64,000 nt of DNA from Thereva unica (taxonomy: Eukaryota > Arthropoda > Insecta > Diptera > Therevidae). The DNA is taken from assembly GCA_949987705.1 (NCBI GenBank), contig OX465283.1, forward strand, positions 51,436,953 through 51,500,952, written 5' to 3'. The position numbers were made by a program, and so were the translations under genes. The stretch's first letter is position 1. Each line of letters starts with the position of its first letter. The notes under the pieces were generated by a model that saw only the letters and a list, made by a program, of their open reading frames with translations, was not told where the DNA came from and did not search any database. Shown one piece after another: positions 2,180 to 55,360 of this stretch.

Positions 2180-5100
2180 GGGGGCAAAATCGTACCGTCA
2201 CCTCCTCGCTGGTGCCTCCTGGATAACCAACCGACGACGGACGTACCCAGTGCCCGGGGGTATAGCTGGGCCACCCTATCCGATGGGGTATAATTCACGG
2301 ATCCGGTCCTCCTGGTAGTGGGGTTGGGCGTTGGGCTAACTACCGGACCCTGTAAAAACACATCAGTTAAGAAACCCGATGAAAAGCCTCGGAACGGACG
2401 GAAAAAACGGCAACGACTACGGCAACAGCACCTGGAAATGATTTTTGGAACATGGAACACGCGAAGTATGTACCGAACTGCATCAGTTAAGTCACTACTA
2501 GACGAAGTGAGCAGATATAAAATCAAATTACTCGCGTTACAAGAGATCAGATGGATAGGAAACGGGACAATGGACCTTGGCAACTACAGGATATTCTACA
2601 GCTGCGGAAGGGAACATCACTTAGGAGTAGGCTTCGTAATACACAACTCAATCATAGATAATGTCATAGAGTTCAAGCCAATCAGTGAACGTCTATGTTC
2701 AATACGACTCCGAACGAAATTCTTCACCCTCACAATCATAAATGTACATGCGGAGACGGAGGAGAAAGCGGACACGACAAAGGACACTTTCTACTACAAG
2801 CTTGAACACGCATATGACACGGCCCCTTCCAATGACATCAAGGTGGTGATAGGAGACCTCAACGCCAAAATTGGAAGAGAGAACTGGTACAGACCAACCA
2901 TTGGAAAAGAAAGTCTCCACGAAACATCAAATGATAACGGACAACGTGTTATCGATTTTGCAATGAGCAAAAATATGATCGTCAGCTCAACATATTTTCC
3001 AAGAAAGGACATTCACAAATACACATGGCAATCTCCCAGCGAAAGGTACTGCAATCAAATAGACCATATACTTATAGACAGAAGGGCAGCTTCCAGTATC
3101 CTTCAAGTAAGATCCTACAGAGGTGCGAATTGTGAATCGGACCACTTCCTAGTTAAAGCTAGATTCAGATGTCGGCTGTCCACTCAAGAACAAAGAAGCA
3201 ACAAAGTAAAGAAATTCGACGTTGACCGCCTCCAGGAACTGACCGTATTGGAGAGATACCAGGCAACGTTAGCAGAGAGGATAGGTCCAAGCCTAAACAT
3301 AAATAATGAAGACACAATTGAGGGAAAATGGACAAGACTGAGGACGATACTGACAGATGTCACGAAGGAAACTGTAGGCTACAAACGCACTGCCAGAGCC
3401 AATGATTGGTACGACGAGGAATGTAAAACAGCTATAGAGGCCAGAAATAGAAATAGGAAAATTTACATAGAGAGACCGACGAGGAGCAAGAAACTGAAAT
3501 ATGAGGAAACAAGAAGAACCGCAAAAAACATCTGCAGGAAGAAGAAAAGGCAATTCCTCAACAATTACATCCTGAGAGCAGAGGAAAACTTTGCCCGAAA
3601 CAAAACCAGGGAAGCATATAAGGAAGTAAACTTCTTCAAGAAAGGCTTCAAACCCTCCTCCGGTATATGTAGAACGAAAGAAGGCACTATAGTTACAGGC
3701 AGCGAAGATGTAAAGAAAAGATGGAAGGAATTTTTTAGCGAGCTGCTGAACGCAAACGAGAGCATCCGACACGTACCAGAACCCCGTCCACAACATAACG
3801 ATGACACCAGAGAAACAAACGAACCCACTCTGGAAGAAGTACAAAGTGCCATACGACTCTTAAGAAATAACAAATCTCCAGGAATTGATAACATCCCAGC
3901 AGAGCTGATCAAGCAAGGAGGCGAACCGCTTTCAGCAGCTATACATGAATTACTATGCTGCATATGGAGGAACGAAAAAATGCCTGAAGATTGGGAGCAA
4001 AGCATTATCTGCCCAATACACAAGAAAGGAGATAGATTCAACTGTGAAAATTACAGAGGCATATCTCTTTTAAGCACAGTGTATAAAATAATGACCAATA
4101 TAATTAAGGCCAGACTGGAACCTTATGCAGAAGCCGTAATAAGTGAATACCAAGCTGGATTCAGAAGAAATAGGTCAACGATGGATCAACTTTTTTCAAT
4201 AAGGCAAATCCTCCGAAAATGCTGGGAATACAACATCGACGTGTATCAACTTTTCATCGACTTTAAACAAGCATACGACAGCATCGACAGGGAGCAAATG
4301 TATGCGACAATGCTGGACCTAAACATACCCCTAAAGATAGTGAAACTGACTAAAATGACAATGGAAAATACAAGGTGTGCAGTCAGAATACAAGGAGAAT
4401 TGACGGAGTCCTTCCCAGTCAAGCAAGGCTTAAAGCAGGGCGATGGGCTGGCACCCATGCTATTTAATCTCTGCCTTGAAGGAGTAATTCGCAAAGTAAA
4501 CATTGATGCGAACGCAACCCTGCTTAACAAATCAAAACAGTTGGCAGGATATGCCGACGACATAAACTGCCTTGCCAGATCACTGTCATACCTTAGAGAA
4601 GTATTCACAGAATTAGAAGATGGAGCTAAACATATAGGGCTGCAAATAAATGCAGAGAAGAGCAAGATTCTAATTCAGTCAAGGGTGGAAAGAAGAAGAA
4701 GAAACCACAACACCACCTGGGGGGAATATAACTTCGAACGGGTAAGCCAATTTAACTACCTGGGGTCCACAGTCAGTGAAGACAACGATGAAACGATAGA
4801 CGTACAAAGAAGAATAAACGCCGCAAACAGAACATACTTCTCACTACTGCCAGTAATGAAATCCAGAGACATCCACAGAAAAACAAAAATAAGAGTCTAC
4901 AAAACCATCATACGTACAGTAGCTACGTATGGTTGTGAAGCATGGAGTATCTCCCAAAAATCCGCCGACAAGTTGGATATATTTGAGAGGAAGGTTCTCC
5001 GAAGGATATACGGCCCAATTAATGAAGACAATGCATGGAGAATACGCTACAATCACGAATTGTACGACTTATACAAAGAATGTAAACTTTCGACCCATGC

Positions 5101-5364
5101 CAAGCTACTGCGTTTACGTTGGGCCGGTCATGTCCAAAGAATGGATGACTCAAGGATACCAAAAAAATCCCTGTATCTACTACCAGATGGCAAAAGACCA
5201 GTTGGCAAACCACGGTCAAGATGGGAAGATAATGTTAAGACCGATGCAGCGAAACTGCTCAACACGAGAAACTGGAGACAAGCTGCGGAGCAGAGAGACG
5301 TCTGGAGGAAGAAGCTGAAGGAGGCCAAGGCTCGAATTGGGCCGTAGAGCCATCGAAGAAGAAG
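2180..5364 (+). mobile_element. Apparently complete RTE-clade non-LTR retrotransposon
   Basis: The element is bounded by the 14-bp target-site duplication aaaatcgatcactg at 2166-2179 and 5365-5378. It has a 5' leader of about 140-260 bases, one long open reading frame and a very short 3' end terminating in (GAA)n, as is usual for RTE elements. The insertion lies inside the older minus-strand DDE transposase, whose reading can be joined across it once one duplication copy is removed. The perfect duplication and uninterrupted ORF indicate a fairly recent insertion. Confidence 0.92.
2438..5347 (+). CDS. RTE endonuclease-reverse transcriptase polyprotein
   Basis: The frame is open from 2318; the first ATG is at 2438, giving 969 residues. 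The N-terminal apurinic-type endonuclease shows TWNTRSM, LQEIRW, VIGDLNAKIG and SDHFLVKA. The central RT shows SPGIDNIPAELI, YRGISLLSTVYKI, QAGFRRNRST, FIDFKQAYDS (about 4253), KQGLKQGDGLAPMLFNL and the catalytic GYADDINC (about 4546). The C-terminus has the RTE-type LRWAGHVQRM and a W-rich tail. All key residues are present, with no stop or frameshift, so the protein is probably functional for target-primed reverse transcription. Upstream in-frame codons (GTG at 2318) could extend it by 40 residues. Confidence 0.92.
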   Translation: MIFGTWNTRSMYRTASVKSLLDEVSRYKIKLLALQEIRWIGNGTMDLGNYRIFYSCGREHHLGVGFVIHNSIIDNVIEFKPISERLCSIRLRTKFFTLTIINVHAETEEKADTTKDTFYYKLEHAYDTAPSNDIKVVIGDLNAKIGRENWYRPTIGKESLHETSNDNGQRVIDFAMSKNMIVSSTYFPRKDIHKYTWQSPSERYCNQIDHILIDRRAASSILQVRSYRGANCESDHFLVKARFRCRLSTQEQRSNKVKKFDVDRLQELTVLERYQATLAERIGPSLNINNEDTIEGKWTRLRTILTDVTKETVGYKRTARANDWYDEECKTAIEARNRNRKIYIERPTRSKKLKYEETRRTAKNICRKKKRQFLNNYILRAEENFARNKTREAYKEVNFFKKGFKPSSGICRTKEGTIVTGSEDVKKRWKEFFSELLNANESIRHVPEPRPQHNDDTRETNEPTLEEVQSAIRLLRNNKSPGIDNIPAELIKQGGEPLSAAIHELLCCIWRNEKMPEDWEQSIICPIHKKGDRFNCENYRGISLLSTVYKIMTNIIKARLEPYAEAVISEYQAGFRRNRSTMDQLFSIRQILRKCWEYNIDVYQLFIDFKQAYDSIDREQMYATMLDLNIPLKIVKLTKMTMENTRCAVRIQGELTESFPVKQGLKQGDGLAPMLFNLCLEGVIRKVNIDANATLLNKSKQLAGYADDINCLARSLSYLREVFTELEDGAKHIGLQINAEKSKILIQSRVERRRRNHNTTWGEYNFERVSQFNYLGSTVSEDNDETIDVQRRINAANRTYFSLLPVMKSRDIHRKTKIRVYKTIIRTVATYGCEAWSISQKSADKLDIFERKVLRRIYGPINEDNAWRIRYNHELYDLYKECKLSTHAKLLRLRWAGHVQRMDDSRIPKKSLYLLPDGKRPVGKPRSRWEDNVKTDAAKLLNTRNWRQAAEQRDVWRKKLKEAKARIGP

Positions 5365-32971: not shown

Positions 32972-33087
32972 AACATATTTTGTGTTTTATTGACCTAAAT
33001 TGAGAATTAAGGTATACTTTGCATTTCGAACAAAAACCACCTGCCCACCTCCCCCCCCCCCAAGAATAATTCTCTAGTTATGCCCAT

Positions 33088-35204
33088 TAGTCCATGGAAA
33101 TGGTACTTTAACATTGCAAAAATGCAGGACAAGGTTTTATTTTTGGGATGTGTAGGGGGGGTCAGTGTGAGCTTAAGTTTGAGTTTTCGGGATTCTAACC
33201 CCCCCATTTGGCCGCCATCTTGGAAAACGTGTGCAAATGGTTTTTCCACTATATCTCCGAAACGGTACATCTTACCGAAAATTTGCAAGGACACTTTTTG
33301 TTTAGAATTAAATAATCTACAATTTATTACTTAGAAATTTTGTGGTAAAATGAATAATTAATAAGTTATAAGCCTTAGAACACAAAAATTAGTCACAATA
33401 TTTTCTTTTAAAGGCTATAACTTTTTTTCCTTCAACTTTACCAAAAAAAATAATAGCAAGTTTTTTGTAGAGGGTTTCATTAGGAATAATTTTCATTCAT
33501 TACTTTTTTAATTTCATTCACTACGAAGGGTTTTACAGCGCCCCGAAGGTATGAAAGTGACAGATTTTCGGAATATTTTATTACAATTTTACCTCCTAGA
33601 AATTAGCAATAACAGCTAGCAAGTAATAATAATGAATGAAAGACTATACGTTATAAGAAATGCCGATGTTTGAGTAATGTAATAAAATTGTTTTCGCATT
33701 TTTTTGCGGGTTTTTATTGCTGTTATGCCATGTTTTATAAGGTACGATATGGTTTAAAATGAAATTCTTTGAATAGTAACATGCGTTACTCCAATTTTTT
33801 AAAATAATTTGTTTTAGAGCTGCACAAAAAAGTATTTCATTTATTCTAACTATCTAGCAACATACGGGCGTATTCATTTTATGACAAGCGTTTGCAAGTT
33901 GTATAACTCATTTCCACACCACCTGCGAGGTAGAGTTTGCCGGTGCGTTTTTAAAGTGGTGTCCCCAATACGACTAATCCAGGATGCTGCTTTTCTATCT
34001 ACTCTATTCTTGGTCCTTTTGAAGGGCTATGCATCGGTTCATGATCAATTACTGGACATTTTTAGATTTGCTGAGGAATTATAGCAGAGTACAAAGGTGT
34101 CAAGGCTGAAAGTTCAAAGAGAAAATAAAACAGTTGGTCAGGAAATTAAAATCAATCAAGGGAGCTTCTAGTGTACAAGACAGTATCGTCGCTGTTGCTG
34201 GTACTATGACAACAAACGCTGTTACCCGTACGACTATCAGAATAACTTTTATAACAAATAGAGTGTAAACTATCCTCCAAAACTTGTGTTTTGGTAGTAT
34301 GCGCAACGGAATAACTATTTACACAGATATAAATATGAAAATTTAACTAAGATCAAACTGAAATAACAATTTTGAAATAAGACTAAGATAATTCAAACTT
34401 TTATCACAAACTGAATACGTCCATATTTTGCTAGATAGTTAACATAACTGAATAAAGCACTTTTTTGTGTAGTCCTAAAACAAATTATTTTAAAAAATTG
34501 GAGTAACGCATGTTACTATTCAAAGAATTTCATTTTAAACCATATCGTACCTTATAAAACATGGCATAACAGCAATAAAAACCCGCAAAAAATGCGAAAC
34601 AATTTTATTACATTACTCAAACATCGGCATTTCTTATAACGTATAGTCATTCATTCATTATTATTACTTGCTAGCTGTTATTGCTAATTTCTAGGAGGTA
34701 AAATTGTAATAAAATATTCCGAAAATCTGTCACTTTCATACCTTCGGGGCGCTGTAAAACCCTTCGTAGTGAATGAAATTAAAAAAGTAATGAATGAAAA
34801 TTATTCCTAATGAAACCCTCTACAAAAAACTTGCTATTATTTTTTTTTTGGTAAAGTTGAAGGAAAAAAAGTTATAGCCTTTAAAAGAAAATATTGTGAC
34901 TAATTTTTGTGTTCTAAGGCTTATAACTTATTAATTATTCATTTTACCACAAAATTTCTAAGTAATAAATTGTAGATTATTTAATTCTAAACAAAAAGTG
35001 TCCTTGCAAATTTTCGGTAAGATGTACCGTTTCGGAGATATAGTGGAAAAACCATTTGCACACGTTTTCCAAGATGGCGGCCAAATGGGGGGGTTAGAAT
35101 CCCGAAAACTCAAACTTAAGCTCACACTGACCCCCCATACACATCCCAAAAATAAAACCTTGTCCTGCATTTTTGCAATGTTAAAGTACCATTTCCATAG
35201 ACTA
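33088..35204. mobile_element. Large palindromic element, TAGTCCA family (2.1 kb)
   Basis: Two arms of about 775 bp (33088-33862 and 34430-35204) are near-perfect inverted copies, with small indels such as homopolymer changes. Ends read TAGTCCATGG at left and TAGTCTATGG (complement) at right. A 3-bp duplication cat flanks both sides (33085-33087, 35205-35207). The 570-bp centre has two open frames (67 codons at 33881 +, 68 codons at 34306 -) without known similarity. Two other elements with the same terminal word are at 53165 and 61508. Confidence 0.85.
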
Positions 35205-35207
35205 CAT

Positions 35208-35900
35208 GGCCATACGCTAAACCACATGTTACCTCCCAAATTGAATAACTGAGTGTTATTTTTGTATTACCACAAAGGTCAATCATACAGAATACTACCT
35301 ACAAATTACTCTTTTTGTATTTTGTATGAAATCCTTTAAGAAAACTATCAGAAGAACAAAAGCAAAAACAATTAGTTATGTCTGTTAAAAAATTCATTTA
35401 AAGCCACACCACCACCTTCATTCATTTCTGAATACAACCAGAATAATACAACCTATAATACTTAATCTCTCTTTGTATTAACTGAAAGCAGTTAATTTGC
35501 ATTTTTATTATCATCTATCTATCTAATACGTCAGAAAGGACATCAGTATCAAAACCGCAACCACAATCCTTTATGCAAAGTTCATCTCCAATAAAAATTC
35601 ATCACGGCACAACATTACAAAACTTTTTTGATAGGGAAAATATTACGTTCGATTTGTATGTAAATAAAATTAAAGGCCGGCTTACCTGATAAGTAGGTGT
35701 AAGAAGATATTAAAATTCTTGGTCAATCCTCTCCTTTTTATGATAATAAAAAAAAGTAGAAAATAAAATTTTATAATTGTATACAAACTCCATGTTAAAC
35801 TTTAATACCCACACATTACCTTCTTTTTAAAGGAATCACTGCCGTTTCCTTAAAAGGACACTTGTCCAAGACTTCAGGATTATCCTGATTGGTTGCTGGG
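35208..35900. other. Intergenic DNA upstream of Trissin
   Basis: AT-rich, no gene or repeat recognised. Includes an inverted CCAAT (gattgg) at about 35887 just before the predicted promoter. Confidence 0.5.
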
Positions 35901-42056: not shown

Positions 42057-42062
42057 TTTATT
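42057..42062 (-). terminator. Poly(A) signal of CCAP
   Basis: AATAAA on the minus strand about 108 bases after the stop codon at 42170. The two genes' 3' ends thus lie within about 150 bases of each other. Confidence 0.6.
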
Positions 42063-42169: not shown

Positions 42170-45100
42170 TTACTGAGCATTAAATGCTAGAGGGAATTTG
42201 TTCTGATGCTCAAGATTCCCCTTTCTTTGAGATGATATTTCTTTGCTGACCTCCTGTATAGCTTCAAAGAGCTTTGCTTGGGACATTATTTGGCGCATCA
42301 AGTCATCAACTGCTGGCTCTGCATTTAGATCGATTAAGTCACCAATTGAACTATCATTTTCCAATTCTTCTTGACCGAATTGACGGTTCCGTATATCATC
42401 TGATCGTTTTCTGCCGCATCCTGAATGGTTAAAGACATAATGTTCTCTTATAAATCAAAGCAGTTTTAGTATAAAGAAACAACGAAAATTAATTAAGACT
42501 AAACAAAAATTAGATTAATACAAATAAAACCTTTTGAGAAAGTACTCGTATAATATAAAAAGTTATTCAAAAAGATTTTAATTTTAAATTGCAACAAACT
42601 GCAACAAAAATAAAAGTATCCCCGAACTCAAAAGATAATGTGAGCAAATGTAATGAAAACCACACGGCGAACTACAGTGGGTGCCCTGTTTTCATCTCTA
42701 TCAACAAGAAAATCTGGACAACCACCCCGGTCACACAAGAACGTACTAATAAACCAAGATGGAAGTCAAGTTTCAGCCTACAGCCAGCCATTGATAAACC
42801 ATCCATTACAAACTAGCTATAGAACAGAGCACCTGACGTATGCAGATGTTATAAAAACAAACCCGCAACCAAGTAGACCAACCCAACAGGGCGAAGTCTT
42901 ACAGATTCTAATCACACTTACAAACAACATACAGCAACTCTCTAATACCATGCAACAAATGCAAACCATGTTAATGAAACAAGCAGAAATCCTATCTAAC
43001 CTTATAAAGCATGAACAGCCTAAAAATAGCCCGATGGAATGGGAACAGCTTAGCCAGTCGCAATAAAGAGCTATAACTATTCCTCATTACGAAGAAAATC
43101 GACATATGTTTATATCTGAACCCCATCTTACCAGCAAAAATAATTTCAAAATAAACGGACACACCTTCAACAACAATAACCACAGACAAACCCCAGGGAA
43201 TTACTGCCATCCTCATTAGAAATAGCATTAAGCACTACCCAAACACCTCATCTTTTCCAACTCTTTCATTGCATCTTTATTGCACGGTTTCATACCTGTC
43301 AATTTCTGACAATCAAGCTCCTCAATACATAGCCCTTCCAACGCCCTTATCCGACTCAATGCTACATACGCTTGACCTTCCTCAAACAGTTTGGAGCCCA
43401 AATACACTACAGCATGATCAACAGTACCAGTGGTCGCCCATGACAAAATTATTGACAACATCCATCTCTCGGCCGTTCCATAATTAAACTTTGGTGGAAA
43501 TTGTATGGCTTTAGGACGGCTAAGGTGTACGCCATCCCTTTCAAAATCAATTTGAACAGATGGTATGTATGTCTGTTTCATACATTTGCCTTCGACGAAA
43601 CTGAGGCCATACAATCTCTATGATGTAGCCACTGACATATAGAATGGACTGCTCATGAGGAATTTTTCATGGCACCAATTTGTTCCATAGGCTACAAACC
43701 TTTTTTCACCCCATGTAAACGCACCGGAATCACTTTTGAAATTTACATTTTTTTAAATACGTACTTAAAACATTAAAACAACACAAATATTTTGTTTAAA
43801 AAAATTAATAAACACTATTTTCACTTTTTCACCTTTTAAAATGCCTTTTTTTCATTAATTTCCAAATTTTATGTGTATCTGATTTAAGTTCTTAACGCCT
43901 GTTTTTCCTGTTCTTTTGAGTGCTTCTGTCAGTTTGGGGGCTTATGGATGAGCGAGTCGACTATACCTTTTTGGTGCCATCGGTTTGTATGGGAATAATT
44001 GCTGATGAGCAGTCCATTATTATATGTCAGGTCAGTGGATGTAGCCGATAGCGCCGCTCACGAACCCTTTCGAGAAGTCAACGTTAGCACGTCACATAAC
44101 GTTGGCTCCTACGAATAATTCAAGTTCTTGTGGTAAACAATCTGTCTTGGTAATATCTGCTGGTCTTCTTCTTCTTCTTCTTTGATCCGTAGCTGGCAAT
44201 CCGAGCAGATATGCTGCTATCGGTGCCGCTTTGAAAAATACGGTTTCTTGCCTAGTTTCTTCGGTTTCCCGTTTCTGATCAATTCGGCAGGTCGCCCACC
44301 CTCCTCCTTTCACACCCTGGGCTGGGGACCAGGGGACGCACATAGTACAGTCAATCTGTATTTTTGATTTGAAAAAATTACACCGGGGATTTTTTTTTCA
44401 TAAAGCTTAAACCCAAATTTGTGACCTCCCACCACTTGCAGGTTCTTGGAAAACCCAAAAAGTTTTTTGATGCATTTTTCTCGGAATCAGTGCACTTTAG
44501 AGAAAACGTTTATTAACAAAAAATATAGAGGACATTGCCGTCTATAATTAATATCTTTGAGTCAATTTCGTACGACTTAAAATGCAAAAGGTAGAGGGCG
44601 CTAAAGTATCATAAAAAGTGTTTTTTCGCTTTTCACCCAAAAAACATTTTTTTAGCGAAAAAAAAACAAACTTTAAAAAGTACTTCTGTAAGGGGTATGG
44701 TAAGGCCTACCCCTTACTAATAAGGGCTCATTTCAGTATTTTTCTGTAAGCTTACAGGTCCCACTGGGTCCGCCAAGGTCCGCCAAACCACATTTAAGTT
44801 AAATTGAAGCAATTTAACTACTCAAAAAAAAAGTCATTTTGGGGGGAAAGGGTTATTTTCGCTTCCCAATAAACTGAAAACACCGCGTATTTATTGAGAA
44901 AGCGATTAATTGGAACAATTTGTTTCTTTTTAACAACTTTAATTTCAAAATAAAACATTTTGCACACATGTGCTCCTCTCACTGCTCTACACAATCTTAA
45001 CTCCGCCGTCGCCTGGTCCCAAGCCCATGGTGTGAAAGGAGGAAGGTGGTTGACCTGTCGAATTGAACAAAATCGGTCAATAACTGAAGAAAGGCAAGAA

Positions 45101-47811
45101 ACCGCATTTTACAAAGCGGCACCGACAGCAGCGTATCCGTTGCGGAGACGTCTCGCTCGCACCGCCAGCTAACGGATCGAAGAAGAAAGAAGGCCCAATT
45201 TTATTGGTGGTTCAGTTAGAACAACCTTACTATATTGAGATGTGGCACTACACATGAACATGAATCTTCTCGGTGAATTGAAATTTTAACTTTCTCTTTT
45301 CCTCTTTTCGGTTAGCTGTTACACTGTCCCCTTCTTACTTAGTGTTCGTTCCGAACACAGATTCCTCCAGGAGCGCGTTCAAAAACCTTACTATGGTTAA
45401 CCATGGTTAACTATGGTAAACTTTTGTCGTTCAAAAACTCCGTGGTTAACTACAACATAACCACGAGCATAACTTTTTGGCGTTCAAAAACTCCCGTGGT
45501 TAACCATGGTGTAGTTAAATTTTAACCATGCTCGAGAGCATGGTTAGCGATAGTTAAGAAGAAGAAGAATAAAAACAATTTTTTGACATTTGTTTTAATG
45601 TTAATAATGAACAAATCAAAGTGGAATTTGTGAGATTATTTTAAATAAATAATTATTGGAAATAATTGAGGCAAAAGCGGTCACTATTTTATGGAAAATA
45701 TTTAAATTTTCTTTACCACGTAGTTAACCACGGTGCGTTCAAAAACCTCCATGGTTAAACATAAACTTTCGTGGTTAAGTGAAGTGATGTAGCATAACCA
45801 CAGCTTACCTCGTGGTTTACTATAGTAAGGTTTTTGAACGCGCTCCAGATCCCGTTCTTACCGATCGAACTTTTTGGATGTGATAGATGACATCGTTCAA
45901 CCTTGTGATGATAGTGTAGGGGCGCACAAATTAAAAAACCTATTTCGACCCTTTCTACCATTTTTACCGTTTCTATACTGGTTAGAAGGAATTTAAAAAA
46001 TGTTCTACATTTTAGAATATGTCTTGGAAAAATTCATGCACCATACTGGCAATTTTGAATTTATAAGTTTTGATCATAAATTCGTTATTTGCAACCTTAA
46101 AAGCCCCCAGATACGGATTTTCATTGGATTGGAATTGGACACAATTGGCCAATTCGTCGGCCATATTGGCGCGGCCATTTTGAATTTATAAGTTTTGACC
46201 ACAAATTCGTTTCTAACGATCTTAAAAAGCCCCAGATACCAACTTTCATTCAAATCACGTCCTTTTTCGAGCGAATTTGAAACGCGCCTAGCAATTCCTG
46301 GCGTCGTCGCCGAGTTAGCAATTTTTGTGGAAAAAATGCCTTAGTTGCAGTTTTTTGCCAAAAATCTTAAAAAAATTAAAAACCATAAAAAAAATTAAAA
46401 ACCTGAATTTTAATGATTGGATATTGTAAAGAGAGTCTTAGGGCATACGTAAAAAAATCAGGACCGACATGGGAGATTTTCTTTTGGCGCAGTAACAAAT
46501 TTAACTTTTTAAATTCACTTAATTGCAAAATGCACTATGCAAAAACTATTTGACCGACCGTGATCGGGTTTTGGATATAAGTTAATCATGCCTTTAACTA
46601 TCTAATTCCAAAATTAAATTGGAAGATAATGGTCTCTTCTTTCCTTGTGATAACTTTAAAGTGAGGTACTTTTTTTCGCGGTTTTCGGCTATTTTGCAAC
46701 CCAAAAATTCAAATTTCAAAAATCCACCTGAGGGTAAGTTTTGGCAAATCCAATAACGAACAAAACATGTTCAACAAATTTTTCGCCTAGAAGCCTTCGT
46801 TAAGAGATATTTAACAAGAAAGGTCAAAAAACGGGGAATTTTTAGTGAATTTTTCAGTTATTGGGCTACCACAAGTTTTCCTGGGAGTTTCATGCTTGCG
46901 CACCCCCTAAATATTGTTGGGGATGTCATTTCTGACCGATTCCACCAAAAAACTTCGTTACATCACGCCAAAACCACTGGAAATGCTCCAGCGCCCAGAC
47001 TACTAGGACATAGCAAAAATTATAATTTTTAATTTAAGCAAATTCATATTGTCGTCCTGAAAAGCATGGAAGGTTAATTTGTTCTAAACAAAAAACCAAT
47101 TTTTTGACAAAAAAAACTTAAAACTATTCTTTCTCTGGGCGCGGTTACATTGTAAAGGGCTTATTCTCTTCGAACTAGTATCAGAATGTAGGTCGATAAG
47201 CTCCAAGCTACTAATAAACTGGAAGCCGTTGGATCATAGGAAGAATTCGATGGAGTGGAGTTTCCACCACATTCCTGGGGTTGGTTCCGCCCAAATACTG
47301 CCCTGTTAGATAAATATTGCCTTTATACAACGAGGAATAAAAATCTTACCAAAGAATGGCAAATAAAAATCGAACTTGGAACTAGTTATACTTTGAATTT
47401 TAAATATCTTTGTTAATGAAACATAGACAAATGATCAATTGACTTTATCCATAAAAAACGCTCAATATTATCATTACTTTATGAAAAGTTCGTTTTGTAA
47501 CAAAAACGAATAATTTACATTGCAAAATGATAAACAGTATATGTAATAAAACTATAAAAAAATACAATACAACGAATTTAAATTTAAAATACATACCTGT
47601 GAATGCATTACAAAAAGGGCGTTTCTTTAAACCCATTTGATTTGCTCGTCTTATATCCATTTCCTTAACAAATTAAGAAAAAGAAATAAAACAATTTTAA
47701 ATTAACATTATTGTAAAAACTTACTCTTGGTGTTATCAATCCACATTCAATCAGCACAAGTAATGTTATATAAAACGTTACAAATATCGTCCTTAAATTA
47801 CGTACGAGCAT
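42170..47811 (-). CDS. CCAP: Crustacean cardioactive peptide (CCAP) precursor (3 coding exons)
   Basis: Exons on the minus strand: 47811-47725 (donor gtaagt), 47663-47597 (acceptor gttaag, donor gtatgt), 42420-42170 (acceptor attcag). Introns are 61 and 5176 bp, phases 0 and 1; the spliced ORF is 134 residues. Residues 1-25 or so form a signal peptide (TIFVTFYITLLVLIECG). The nonapeptide PFCNAFTGC (45-53) follows the cleavage site KKR and precedes GRKR, where Gly gives the C-terminal amide; its two Cys form the ring. Intron 2 splits the Gly-52 codon. The rest of the precursor is acidic (SIGDLIDLNAEPAVDDLM). CCAP controls ecdysis behaviour and heart and gut muscle in insects. The peptide is identical to the conserved arthropod form, so identification is secure. 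Confidence 0.95.
42589..43235 (+). pseudogene. Jockey-type ORF1 end and start of ORF2, in CCAP intron 2
   Basis: The plus strand has a zinc-knuckle-like NHTANYSGCPVF, then LTYADVIKTNPQ and a Gln/Met-rich helical tail ending at 43066, typical of Jockey ORF1. A second reading starts near 43080 with FISEPHLTSKNNFKINGHTF and AILIRNSI-like sequence, the beginning of the endonuclease. It stops at 43235 where Helitron sequence begins. Confidence 0.7.
43236..43620 (-). pseudogene. Helitron PIF1 helicase C-terminal fragment, in CCAP intron 2
   Basis: 128 codons open on the minus strand: IQFPPKFNYGTAE-type sequence, GTVDHAVVYLGSKLFEEGQAYVALSRIRALEGLCIEELDC in overlapping pieces, and KPCNKDAMKELEKM. 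VALSRIR is helicase motif VI. Only the last helicase part is present. Unlike the fragment at 563-1725, no endonuclease domain follows. Confidence 0.8.
43621..44060. mobile_element. Foldback/MITE remnant, about 430 bp
   Basis: The left end gatgtagccactgacatata with aatggactgctcat pairs with the complement of the right end (atgagcagtccatt, gtcagtggatgtag at 44013-44042). Diverged terminal repeats of about 60 bp. No ORF. Confidence 0.6.
44164..44334 (-). repeat. SINE with (GAA)n tail, copy A
   Basis: About 170 bp matching 44997-45192 and 55167-55360 in opposite orientation. Shared body: tggtccc.agccca.ggtgtgaaaggagg, cgacctgccgaattga, gaaaccgaagaaac, cggcaccga.agcag. On its own strand it ends in (gaa)n (44164-44182). 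No ORF is needed; open frames across it are accidental. Confidence 0.75.
44335..44996. other. Unassigned AT-rich DNA in CCAP intron 2
   Basis: No gene recognised. Contains duplicated ggtccgccaa words (44766-44788) and homopolymer tracts. Possibly an old non-autonomous element. Confidence 0.4.
44997..45192 (+). repeat. SINE with (GAA)n tail, copy B
   Basis: Starts cttaactccgccgtcgcctgg, ends ggatcgaagaagaaag. About 80% similar to copy C. A ggtt(g)acctgtcg stretch could be a diverged Pol III B box, but this is uncertain. Confidence 0.75.
45371..45845. mobile_element. MITE with repeated GCGTTCAAAAAC motifs (475 bp)
   Basis: Terminal inverted repeats gagcgcgttcaaaaacctta (left, and complement at right). 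Target duplication cag on both sides (45368-45370, 45846-45848). Within the element cgttcaaaaac and gtggttaac(c) words recur many times on both strands, like subterminal transposase-binding repeats. The 3-bp duplication suggests Harbinger-type mobilisation. Confidence 0.82.
45849..47590. other. Unassigned DNA, distal part of CCAP intron 2
   Basis: 46030-46260 contains two tandem versions of a block with gaatttataagttttga and aaaagccccagatac, and its ggccatattggcgcggccat stretch matches 27115-27150 inverted. The rest has no recognised element. Confidence 0.5.
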
Positions 47812-50800
47812 GTTTTTCTGTAATGGAATGATAACCGTAGAATGTGATATTTCATTTGCAAAACGTCATTGTTTTATTATAAATGTGTCAATAACAGTTG
47901 CATGTAGTGAATACACCTATTGTGGGTATGTACAAAAAGCTTCTATAAAGTCTTATGATTAGTTAGGGATATTGATAACATAATAGATTGAATAGAGCTG
48001 CAAGACATAACAATTCTCAATGCCATAGTTTTGATGCTACATATATTCTTTTCTTACCCTGGCCGTATGTTTAAGAATGTGTTGGTATTAAAATTTGTTT
48101 AATAAAATTTTAGTGCAGAATTATTTAAGACGTAATAATATTTAATATAGAAAAGAGAATGACAAGAAAGTTTCTAAACCATATAACTACAAATATTCAT
48201 TCTATATAATTTTTAGGGTGCTGAATCCGAGTCTTAGGTTTGCAAACAAAATTTCGTGATGCACAATTGATTGAAAAGAAAAAAAGGTAAAAAACTCGCT
48301 TCTAACTCGATACTGTCAACTTTTCTTAGATAGTTTCTATATATAAAATAAAATTTCTTATATAAAATATAATTTTCTTACAAATTTAAATTTTTTCTCC
48401 AACGGAGCGGTTCGGGCTCAGGTGCCAGATGTATGGCATATTTAAACTATCTGCGCAAAAAAAACTTTCTCCACTCCTATTAGCCTGACAATTCGTAAAT
48501 TTTTATAGGTGATAAACTGTTGTGTGGTACCTAGAGTGATATAGTGATTGAACAAATTCTAATACTATGTACGCAATGAGCAGAAAATTATGTAGAACCG
48601 TTCGCACTTGAGATGATTTCGTTTGGCTGTTTTTCCTAGCACCCAAATTTCCACTAGCAATTCCATTTCTCCATAACGAAGTCATGATTAAGGCAGGACC
48701 AGGACTTTTCGAAGCCCTGTGCAACTTGCTGGTGGAGGCTCTTAAATTTAAAAAAATTGAATACCAAGCTTTGAATAGTGCTATATTTATTCCCCTATAG
48801 TCCCTCGTGGGACATAAGGCGAAACAGTGGCCCTCCAGCAGACTCTGTTTCGTGCAACAGCTCTCAGCTCCGACTAGGATCTCCCAGTCCAGTCCATACA
48901 TAGAAAATTCAAAGTCTTTAGTTTTAAAGGTACTTGTGCATTATATTCTTAATTGTACAATTTGAAGCAAAACAAATATGTTTAGTACAGCCTAAAAAAA
49001 TTAAGTGATTTTAGGATGCTGCGCAGTCAGGCCCCATGTTCTGGTCTGGTCTGCCTGGTAGACCTAGTACACCAGGTTCATATTGCAAATTCTGAGACTC
49101 AAACCAAAACTCAAATTAATGCACCTTAGCCCGGATCAGCAAAATCCCGCTCAAAGCACAGCGAAGTTCAAAACTGCAGATTCGTTCCCTCACTTCGATA
49201 GCCATATGAGGCACAGCGAAGTTCAACTCAAACTCAGCCAAGGTGCAGCGAAGTTCAAAAGTCCATCCACTGCTAAACCTCATCGGAGACAACTGGAACT
49301 TCAACCCAATTCTCAAAGCTCATCCGAAGCACATCGATGTTCAATAAATCTCATACGCAGGTGGCGCTCTTTACCACCCAAGACTTCATCCACACCCAAG
49401 ACAACAGCCGATGACGGCACTGTGCTGATAATCCCATAGCTCTACTACTTGTGTTTTTTCACAATTTCAGTTAATTGCTGCAACTCTGAACCAAAAGGCT
49501 TGTCTACATTGATTCAATAAAATGTGACACCAAGTCCTGACACTAACTAACTTCAACCCAGGAAGCAGATGAAAAATCCGGGAAAATCAAAAATTCCTGT
49601 TTGGGTATTGTAGTTTATAGCCCAACAACAGTTTTCTAAGGCACAGCAAACAATTAAATTATTCGTAACAAATTATATTCAGCAAAATGTGAAATGTAAC
49701 AAATGTAAATTAAAAAAAGGGAATGCAATGGAATAAAACGTACCAAACTACAGGACGTCTTGAGATGAATGCAGCGTTTAACTCTTCAATAATAACAATA
49801 TGCTTTCCCTCTTTTTTCATATTTCTTCTAGCCTTCTAACCACTTTTAGCTGAGCTAAATAACTTTTACTGTGCTCTTTTCTTTTTCTTCCATAAGATCG
49901 CATGAGAAAAGACGCAACAGTGGCATACATTTTCTCGAAAACCATGGTACAGATTTTTTCAAACTCCGTGACACAAAAAATTCGAACAGTTCCTCGTTGT
50001 CAAATTTTATAAATTTTATTCTATCATTTCCCCTCTTTTTAGTTAAAACGGCAACAAACACAGAAAAAACTCAACAAAATAATTTGGGAAGCGATGCGCG
50101 CATGCCGAATGAATAAAGTTAATTTATCTTTATATGTGTTGAGCAGAGCTTTTAAATACATGTAAAGCCCCTGCTCAACAAAGGCAGTTTATCCATCATA
50201 ATAAGCATAATTTTACTATAATTATGCGAAATATTTCTCATCCCTAAATTTAAAATAATTTAAAAAATAATCTGAAAAAATTTCTTTTGAATGCTACTGC
50301 TTTTTCATTAATTAAACGAGAGTTCTCCTCAGCCGCAAGCAGCACAACCTCCCCGAGCAGAAGCGCGCATGCGACTGGCGGAAAACGTCAACAAACTAGT
50401 AATCAAAGTGATAAAAATACAAATTTCGTATTTTTTAGTATAAATTGCTACAAATTATTTCTGTAGCAATTGTGTAAAATACAAAAACCTTGAAATAAAA
50501 AAATATATAAAAAGGCGCGTTTTTCATTTAAGTCCCAGAAAAATACACCTCCCTCTAGCAATACGCAGTCGTGACTGATTAAATGGCAGCAAGTGATTTG
50601 ATAGGAGGTGGAGGAGTTAAACAAAGCTTTGCCCGAGCTTTTAAATATTTTTCAGAGCTTTGTTGGGGTATATGCGCGGACTATCACGACCTTTGAAAAG
50701 ATCTATACAATAATACAAGGTAGGCTAGTAAGGAAAAGCTTTGTTTCCATCTTGAAAAGCTTAAACGCAATTTGTTAGAGAAAAGATTACTCAGATCTTT

Positions 50801-55166: not shown

Positions 55167-55360
55167 TTAACTCCGCCGTCGTCTGGTCCCAAGTCCAGGG
55201 TGCGAAAGGAGGAGGGTGGTCGACCTGCCGAATTGACCATAATCGGAAAACCGAAGAAACTAAGCAAAAAACCGCATTTTTTAAAGTGGCACCGACAGCA
55301 GGGTATCCGTTGCGGGGACGTCCTGCTTGGACCACCAGCTAACGGATCAAAAGAGAAGAA
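55167..55360 (+). repeat. SINE with GA-rich tail, copy C
   Basis: Starts attaactccgccgtcgtctgg and ends ggatcaaaagagaagaac. Closest to copy B. Inserted downstream of the RT fragment. Confidence 0.75.

Follow-up and report, generated by a model that had tools for sequence, protein, structure and literature searches.

A CCAP gene in the fly Thereva unica whose nonapeptide is split by a long, probably inherited intron

The CCAP gene and its coding frame

The window analysed here, a 64,000-nucleotide stretch of Thereva unica DNA taken as a whole (assembly GCA_949987705.1, contig OX465283.1, positions 51,436,953 to 51,500,952), carries on its minus strand a three-exon coding gene for the precursor of CCAP (crustacean cardioactive peptide), a hormone of heart and moulting, in which the codons of the nonapeptide PFCNAFTGC are divided between exons 2 and 3. 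Both introns have the form GT...AG. The parts of the gene, all on the minus strand and given in the order in which they are read, are as follows.

47725..47811: coding exon 1, 87 nt; start codon and putative signal peptide MLVRNLRTIFVTFYITLLVLIECGLITPR; donor AGA/GTAAGT, phase 0
47664..47724: intron 1, 61 nt, phase 0, GTAAGT...TTAAG
47597..47663: coding exon 2, 67 nt; a spacer, then the KKR cleavage site and PFCNAFT, ending with base 1 of the Gly-8 codon
42421..47596: intron 2, 5176 nt, phase 1, Gly-8 codon split G/GA; GTATGT...CCATTCAG
42170..42420: coding exon 3, 251 nt including the stop; last two bases of Gly-8 and the conserved C-terminal propeptide
42418-42416, 42415-42413 and 42412-42404 (within exon 3): Cys-9, the amidation glycine and RKR respectively
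42057..42062: candidate polyadenylation signal AATAAA, 107 nt past the stop; a motif only, with three ATTAAA motifs also present

The nonapeptide begins in exon 2 with its first base at 47618, breaks off at the donor at 47597 (CACAG/GTATGT) and resumes at the acceptor, where CCATTCAG is followed by GATGCGGC and exon 3 starts at 42420. The first-pass annotation of this DNA had the exon coordinates and the 47597/42420 junction exactly, and its figure of 5.2 kb for the intron compares with the 5176 nt found here. Its description of exon 2 as ending in the codon for Gly-8 places the split correctly but gives exon 2 too much, as that exon holds just the first base and not the full codon; the remainder of the hormone and the GRKR signal do lie in exon 3, as it had proposed.

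Joining the exons (87+67+251) gives a coding sequence of 405 nt without internal stop, encoding a precursor of 134 amino acids that reads ...GLKKRPFCNAFTGCGRKRSDD...NAEPAVDDLMRQIMSQAKLFEAIQEV...NAQ and contains PFCNAFTGC once and exactly. The Pfam CCAP family PF11105 matches residues 10-119 (E 3.4e-32), its score of 111.5 bits lying above the cut-off of 27. Basic cleavage sites flank the nonapeptide, KKR before it and GRKR, which includes the amidation glycine, after it; across 17 aligned sequences the G, K and R of G-x-K-R are invariant, and the C-terminal propeptide DLIDLNAEPAV..LMRQIMSQAK is conserved in the alignment. The N-terminus is hydrophobic as judged by inspection. One and the same frame contains the nonapeptide in exact form, the KKR and GRKR on either side of it and the conserved C-terminal part, which excludes a chance match. 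Immediately upstream of the coding region, at 47812-47840 on the minus strand, the sequence TTCCATTACAG followed by AAAAACATG resembles a splice acceptor six bases before the ATG; an upstream non-coding exon is therefore possible, and the coding exons described here may be exons 2 to 4.

In protein searches the closest named match is the precursor of the long-legged fly Condylostylus longicornis, 52% identical along the entire length, followed by those of the fungus gnat Bradysia coprophila (47%) and the sand fly Lutzomyia longipalpis (46%). The nonapeptide, the cleavage and amidation sites and the conserved propeptide are the same in the window gene as in CCAP of B. coprophila, C. longicornis and Drosophila, the likeness to Condylostylus being one of protein.

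The assembly (910,112,553 bases in 930 contigs) was searched for further copies. A degenerate DNA pattern for the exon-2 segment PFCNAFTG, allowed zero mismatches, has one match (its reversed-pattern control has 0), and the exon-3 protein likewise has one match at E values up to 10, all three of the three first-look candidates having been scored. Both matches are the window gene; no second CCAP locus was seen with either probe in the 910-Mb assembly, and the window gene is the only CCAP gene found in it. A frame that reads from exon 2 straight into intron 2 adds 49 unrelated residues behind Gly-8 before it meets a stop, with neither Cys-9 in place nor an amidation signal. Because retention of intron 2 removes both, mature CCAP needs this splice, and the earlier claim that the hormone depends on one splicing event is borne out, as neither search turned up another copy of exon 2 or of exon 3. 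Such dependence holds wherever an intron interrupts the codons of the peptide and is not peculiar to this gene.

The Gly-8 junction in other CCAP precursors

The comparison with other insect CCAP genes that the first-pass annotation had proposed was made on 243 distinct proteins drawn from three CCAP protein searches, which listed 48, 120 and 120 matches (in the last case the best 120 of 505). These rows are 90% clusters and not independent species, and nameless rows are assigned to groups by their likeness to named ones. The protein database appears to hold mechanical translations of genomic contigs that run off exons into introns, so that the introns of relatives are read here from translated frames and not from DNA; pattern scans of genome contigs (65 stretches) and viral contigs (6) gave no relative's CCAP DNA, and a protein search of plasmids gave no match.

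Of the 243 proteins 69 break at the Gly-8 junction: 46 break after FCNAF(T/A/E/Q)G, 19 start their exon-3 sequence at the Gly and 4 show both sides. A further 168 are continuous, and six rows (P0049, P0063, P0067, P0134, P0163 and P0165) fall outside these classes, three of them (P0049, P0063 and P0067) being used below as separate evidence. A phase-1 intron that starts GTAAG or GTGAG should place Lys or Glu directly after the Gly of a read-through frame. Among the 34 rows that break after FTG (P0194 included) the next residue is K in 11, E in 9, N in 4, D in 2 and M in 2, with R, L, S, Q, A and T once each. K or E thus occupies 20 of 34 positions, where assumed general residue frequencies would lead one to expect 4.3 (nominal P 2e-10, for rows that are not independent), while Val, the prediction for a phase-0 intron, occurs in none of the 34. 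On the acceptor side the preceding residue allows a codon ending in A, as needed for ...AG/G, in all 23 of 23 rows (nominal P 0.002), and a CAG or TAG acceptor fits 18 of them.

Named gene models that break at Gly-8 come from a beetle (Dendroctonus ponderosae, P0059), a thrips (Frankliniella occidentalis, P0076) and a fly (Drosophila virilis, P0192), the exon-3 sequence of the last beginning at the same Gly as in the window gene; a Drosophila-like row, P0057, appears to extend beyond exon 2 at both ends. P0198 also begins its exon-3 sequence at the Gly and from there on is by eye very like P0115 of Coccinella septempunctata, and the rows with VYDSDLAAMFDPKKKKPFCNAFTG (P0068 and P0070) are reminiscent of P0047 of Bemisia. 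The model P0049 of the moth Loxostege sticticalis reads FT/D and lacks the GCGRKR part, the pattern expected if an exon 2 whose last codon consists of a single G had been spliced to a point beyond the beginning of exon 3.

The fungus gnats provide the closest parallel. P0003 of B. coprophila is continuous across the junction (PFCNAFTGCGRKR), and P0010, P0011, P0012 and P0194 resemble it with 16 extra residues inserted between the Gly and the next Gly-Cys, which implies an in-frame intron of 51 nt. In the fungus-gnat-like rows P0063 and P0067, at the point where P0003 goes on, exon 1 runs into a tail that starts with Val (GTN), which is what a phase-0 intron 1 predicts; a 4240-base contig, probably one and the same, is given for P0063 and for P0010. 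Together these six rows imply that both introns of the window gene have fungus-gnat counterparts, at matching places and phases, the implied 51 nt of intron 2 comparing with 5176 nt in the window gene.

The best interpretation of these breaks is that the intron is inherited and sits in other insects at an identical base and in an identical phase. Several observations weigh against so simple a picture. The continuous rows make up 168 of 243, and many of these are named gene models. Midge-like P0168, P0177, P0178, P0184 and P0201 run from apparent intron-1 sequence through Gly-Cys unbroken, as do, across the junction, P0078 and P0105, read as mite-like (contigs up to 18 and 23 kb), and fly-like P0007 (contigs up to 28.7 kb). 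AAG is the sole fitting acceptor in 5 of the 23 rows mentioned above (P0044, P0176, P0206, P0210 and P0231). Finally, the 16 broken rows without FTG (11 FAG, 4 FEG and a single FQG, P0117) carry K in 5, T in 3, N in 3, S in 2 and I, A and R once each after the Gly, and never E, which matches the donor consensus less well, and some of these breaks may not be of the same kind. Those continuous rows that look genomic (among them P0168, P0177, P0078, P0105 and P0007) suggest that the Gly-8 intron is absent from some lineages, in some of which it was probably lost, and the difference among midge-like rows points to a possible recent loss within one family.

Two further observations stand beside these. 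The midge-like rows P0175 and P0176 do break, unlike the five midge-like rows named above. The PFCNAFAG (11) and PFCNAFEG (4) precursors all end after the Gly (P0052, P0053, P0062, P0066, P0075, P0080, P0082, P0092, P0133, P0135, P0138, P0143, P0150, P0151 and P0154); one further FAG row, P0193, is continuous.

Repeats in intron 2 and in the window

Three features stand out within the 5176 nt of intron 2.

45370..45846, no strand assigned: short inverted-repeat element of 477 bp, like a miniature inverted-repeat transposable element; 34-nt terminal inverted repeats, arms 94% complementary
44208..44338, no strand assigned: inverted repeat arm, with its partner at 45007-45137 and a related copy outside the gene at 55167-55357
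43228..43617, minus strand: PIF1-family helicase-like fragment (C-terminal part); PIF1 chains from E 8.2e-4 over residues 52-102

A search with 45340-45880 scored the best 40 of 1860 first-look candidates. Among the matches listed are 39 further copies of nearly full length, 97-99% identical and spread over seven contigs (C1 to C6 and C155), and so the 477-bp element is a member of a large family that spread recently and was recently active. No clear target-site duplication was found for it. It lies 1750 nt from the intron-2 donor and 2949 nt from the acceptor, distances at which it did not create the splice sites. For 43228-43617 the best chain is an AAA ATPase (E 1.2e-4) and the likeness to PIF1 is weak; the fragment may represent Helitron-like debris. 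A Pfam search of six reading frames of intron 2 returned three matches, all below threshold (DUF2301, TBK1_CCD1 and Peptidase_M9_N), that to DUF2301 falling at 43228-43617. The first-pass description of the intron as transposon debris is upheld for the 477-bp repeat family, the PIF1-like fragment and the inverted repeats that match elsewhere in the window; as a statement about the whole intron it reaches further than the genome copy-number search, which covered 541 of the 5176 bases.

Repeats also occur elsewhere in the window. An open frame of 1017 amino acids at 2294-5347 on the plus strand looks by eye like the endonuclease and reverse transcriptase of a non-LTR (long terminal repeat) retrotransposon, possibly a recent insertion, and 33011-33334 (plus strand) and 34958-35266 (minus strand) have near-identical translations in opposite orientation about 1.6 kb apart, forming an inverted repeat outside the CCAP gene.

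The length of intron 2 is what is particular to this fly gene. According to a locust and termite survey, the much bigger genome of Locusta goes with much bigger introns (PMC4237046), and on that pattern long introns are to be expected in large insect genomes.

Origin and role of the split

Taken together, the comparisons make it very probable that this is a fly CCAP gene, the sole one found in the assembly, with an inherited phase-1 intron at Gly-8 that mobile elements have lengthened here. Once the gene is expressed, pre-mRNA splicing would join the three coding exons across the inherited intron 2 that cuts the Gly-8 codon. On the model of the known family, the precursor would then be secreted and cleaved at KKR and RKR, and the Gly after Cys-9 would serve for amidation, yielding PFCNAFTGC-NH2 with a Cys3-Cys9 bond. 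Intron 2 would have grown by insertion of mobile elements, at least one of them recently.

The young element, 97-99% identical to its other copies, and the further repeats around it could instead point to a recent, species-specific intron created by a transposon. This origin is highly improbable given that breaks at the same base occur in flies, a beetle and a thrips (P0192, P0059 and P0076), that the moth model P0049 fits an exon ending in a lone G, and that the young element sits too far from donor and acceptor to be the source of the splice sites. The repeats in intron 2 could equally be taken to mark a relic, a dead split copy beside an intact second locus that makes the hormone, and in a 930-contig assembly that may be incomplete a missing copy is conceivable. 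Exon 2 and exon 3 each match once in 910 Mb, however, and the window gene keeps its 134-residue frame open, with splice dinucleotides and cleavage and amidation signals intact and its propeptide conserved; the check for a second CCAP locus suggested by the first-pass annotation thus lends no support to the relic, which we regard as extremely unlikely.

A different proposal concerns why the split is kept. As retention removes Cys-9 and the amidation signal, and as the site persists across insect orders, regulated retention of a long intron might gate the output of CCAP until splicing is allowed. Against a needed gate, P0010, P0011, P0012 and P0194 imply an intron of no more than 51 nt, and in midge-like rows it is apparently absent. 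The persistence of the site is the one positive point in favour of gating, and nothing here suggests a regulatory role; we consider it very unlikely. Were it true after all, improbable as that is, transposon growth of intron 2 could tune the delay between transcription and hormone.

We therefore return to the inherited intron lengthened by mobile elements. The observation of a divided hormone is real and was correctly read; the gene is of a known kind, its intron ancestral, and it is ordinary. A view of the split as something remarkable is not supported, given that other insects break at the matching base in the matching phase and that the intron is implied to shrink to 51 nt. No description of the position of the CCAP intron was seen in the literature searched, and we do not claim that it is unpublished. 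Older work on the CCAP genes of Manduca and Rhodnius may describe it.

Introns inside mature neuropeptides have parallels in other families. Insect NPF genes carry a phase-2 intron in the C-terminal Arg codon, at a conserved place inside the mature peptide, and elevenin genes have a peptide likewise split by an intron (PMC6585902). The intron cuts mature-peptide codons in both NPF and CCAP, which differ in peptide family and in phase; elevenin and CCAP are likewise split and their peptides are unrelated.

A striking feature of one window thus turns out to be inherited. For gene finders it means that the full CCAP peptide is not one stretch in such genomic DNA, a difficulty to which PMC6585902 points in the case of NPF and elevenin. 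If the animals with FAG or FEG precursors are a group outside the insects, the Gly-8 intron may be older still. The length of the CCAP intron seems to vary from 51 nt to more than 5 kb, and some lineages seem to have no such intron; it would offer a modest example in which to follow how an intron lengthens or disappears at one fixed site where coding constraint is strong.
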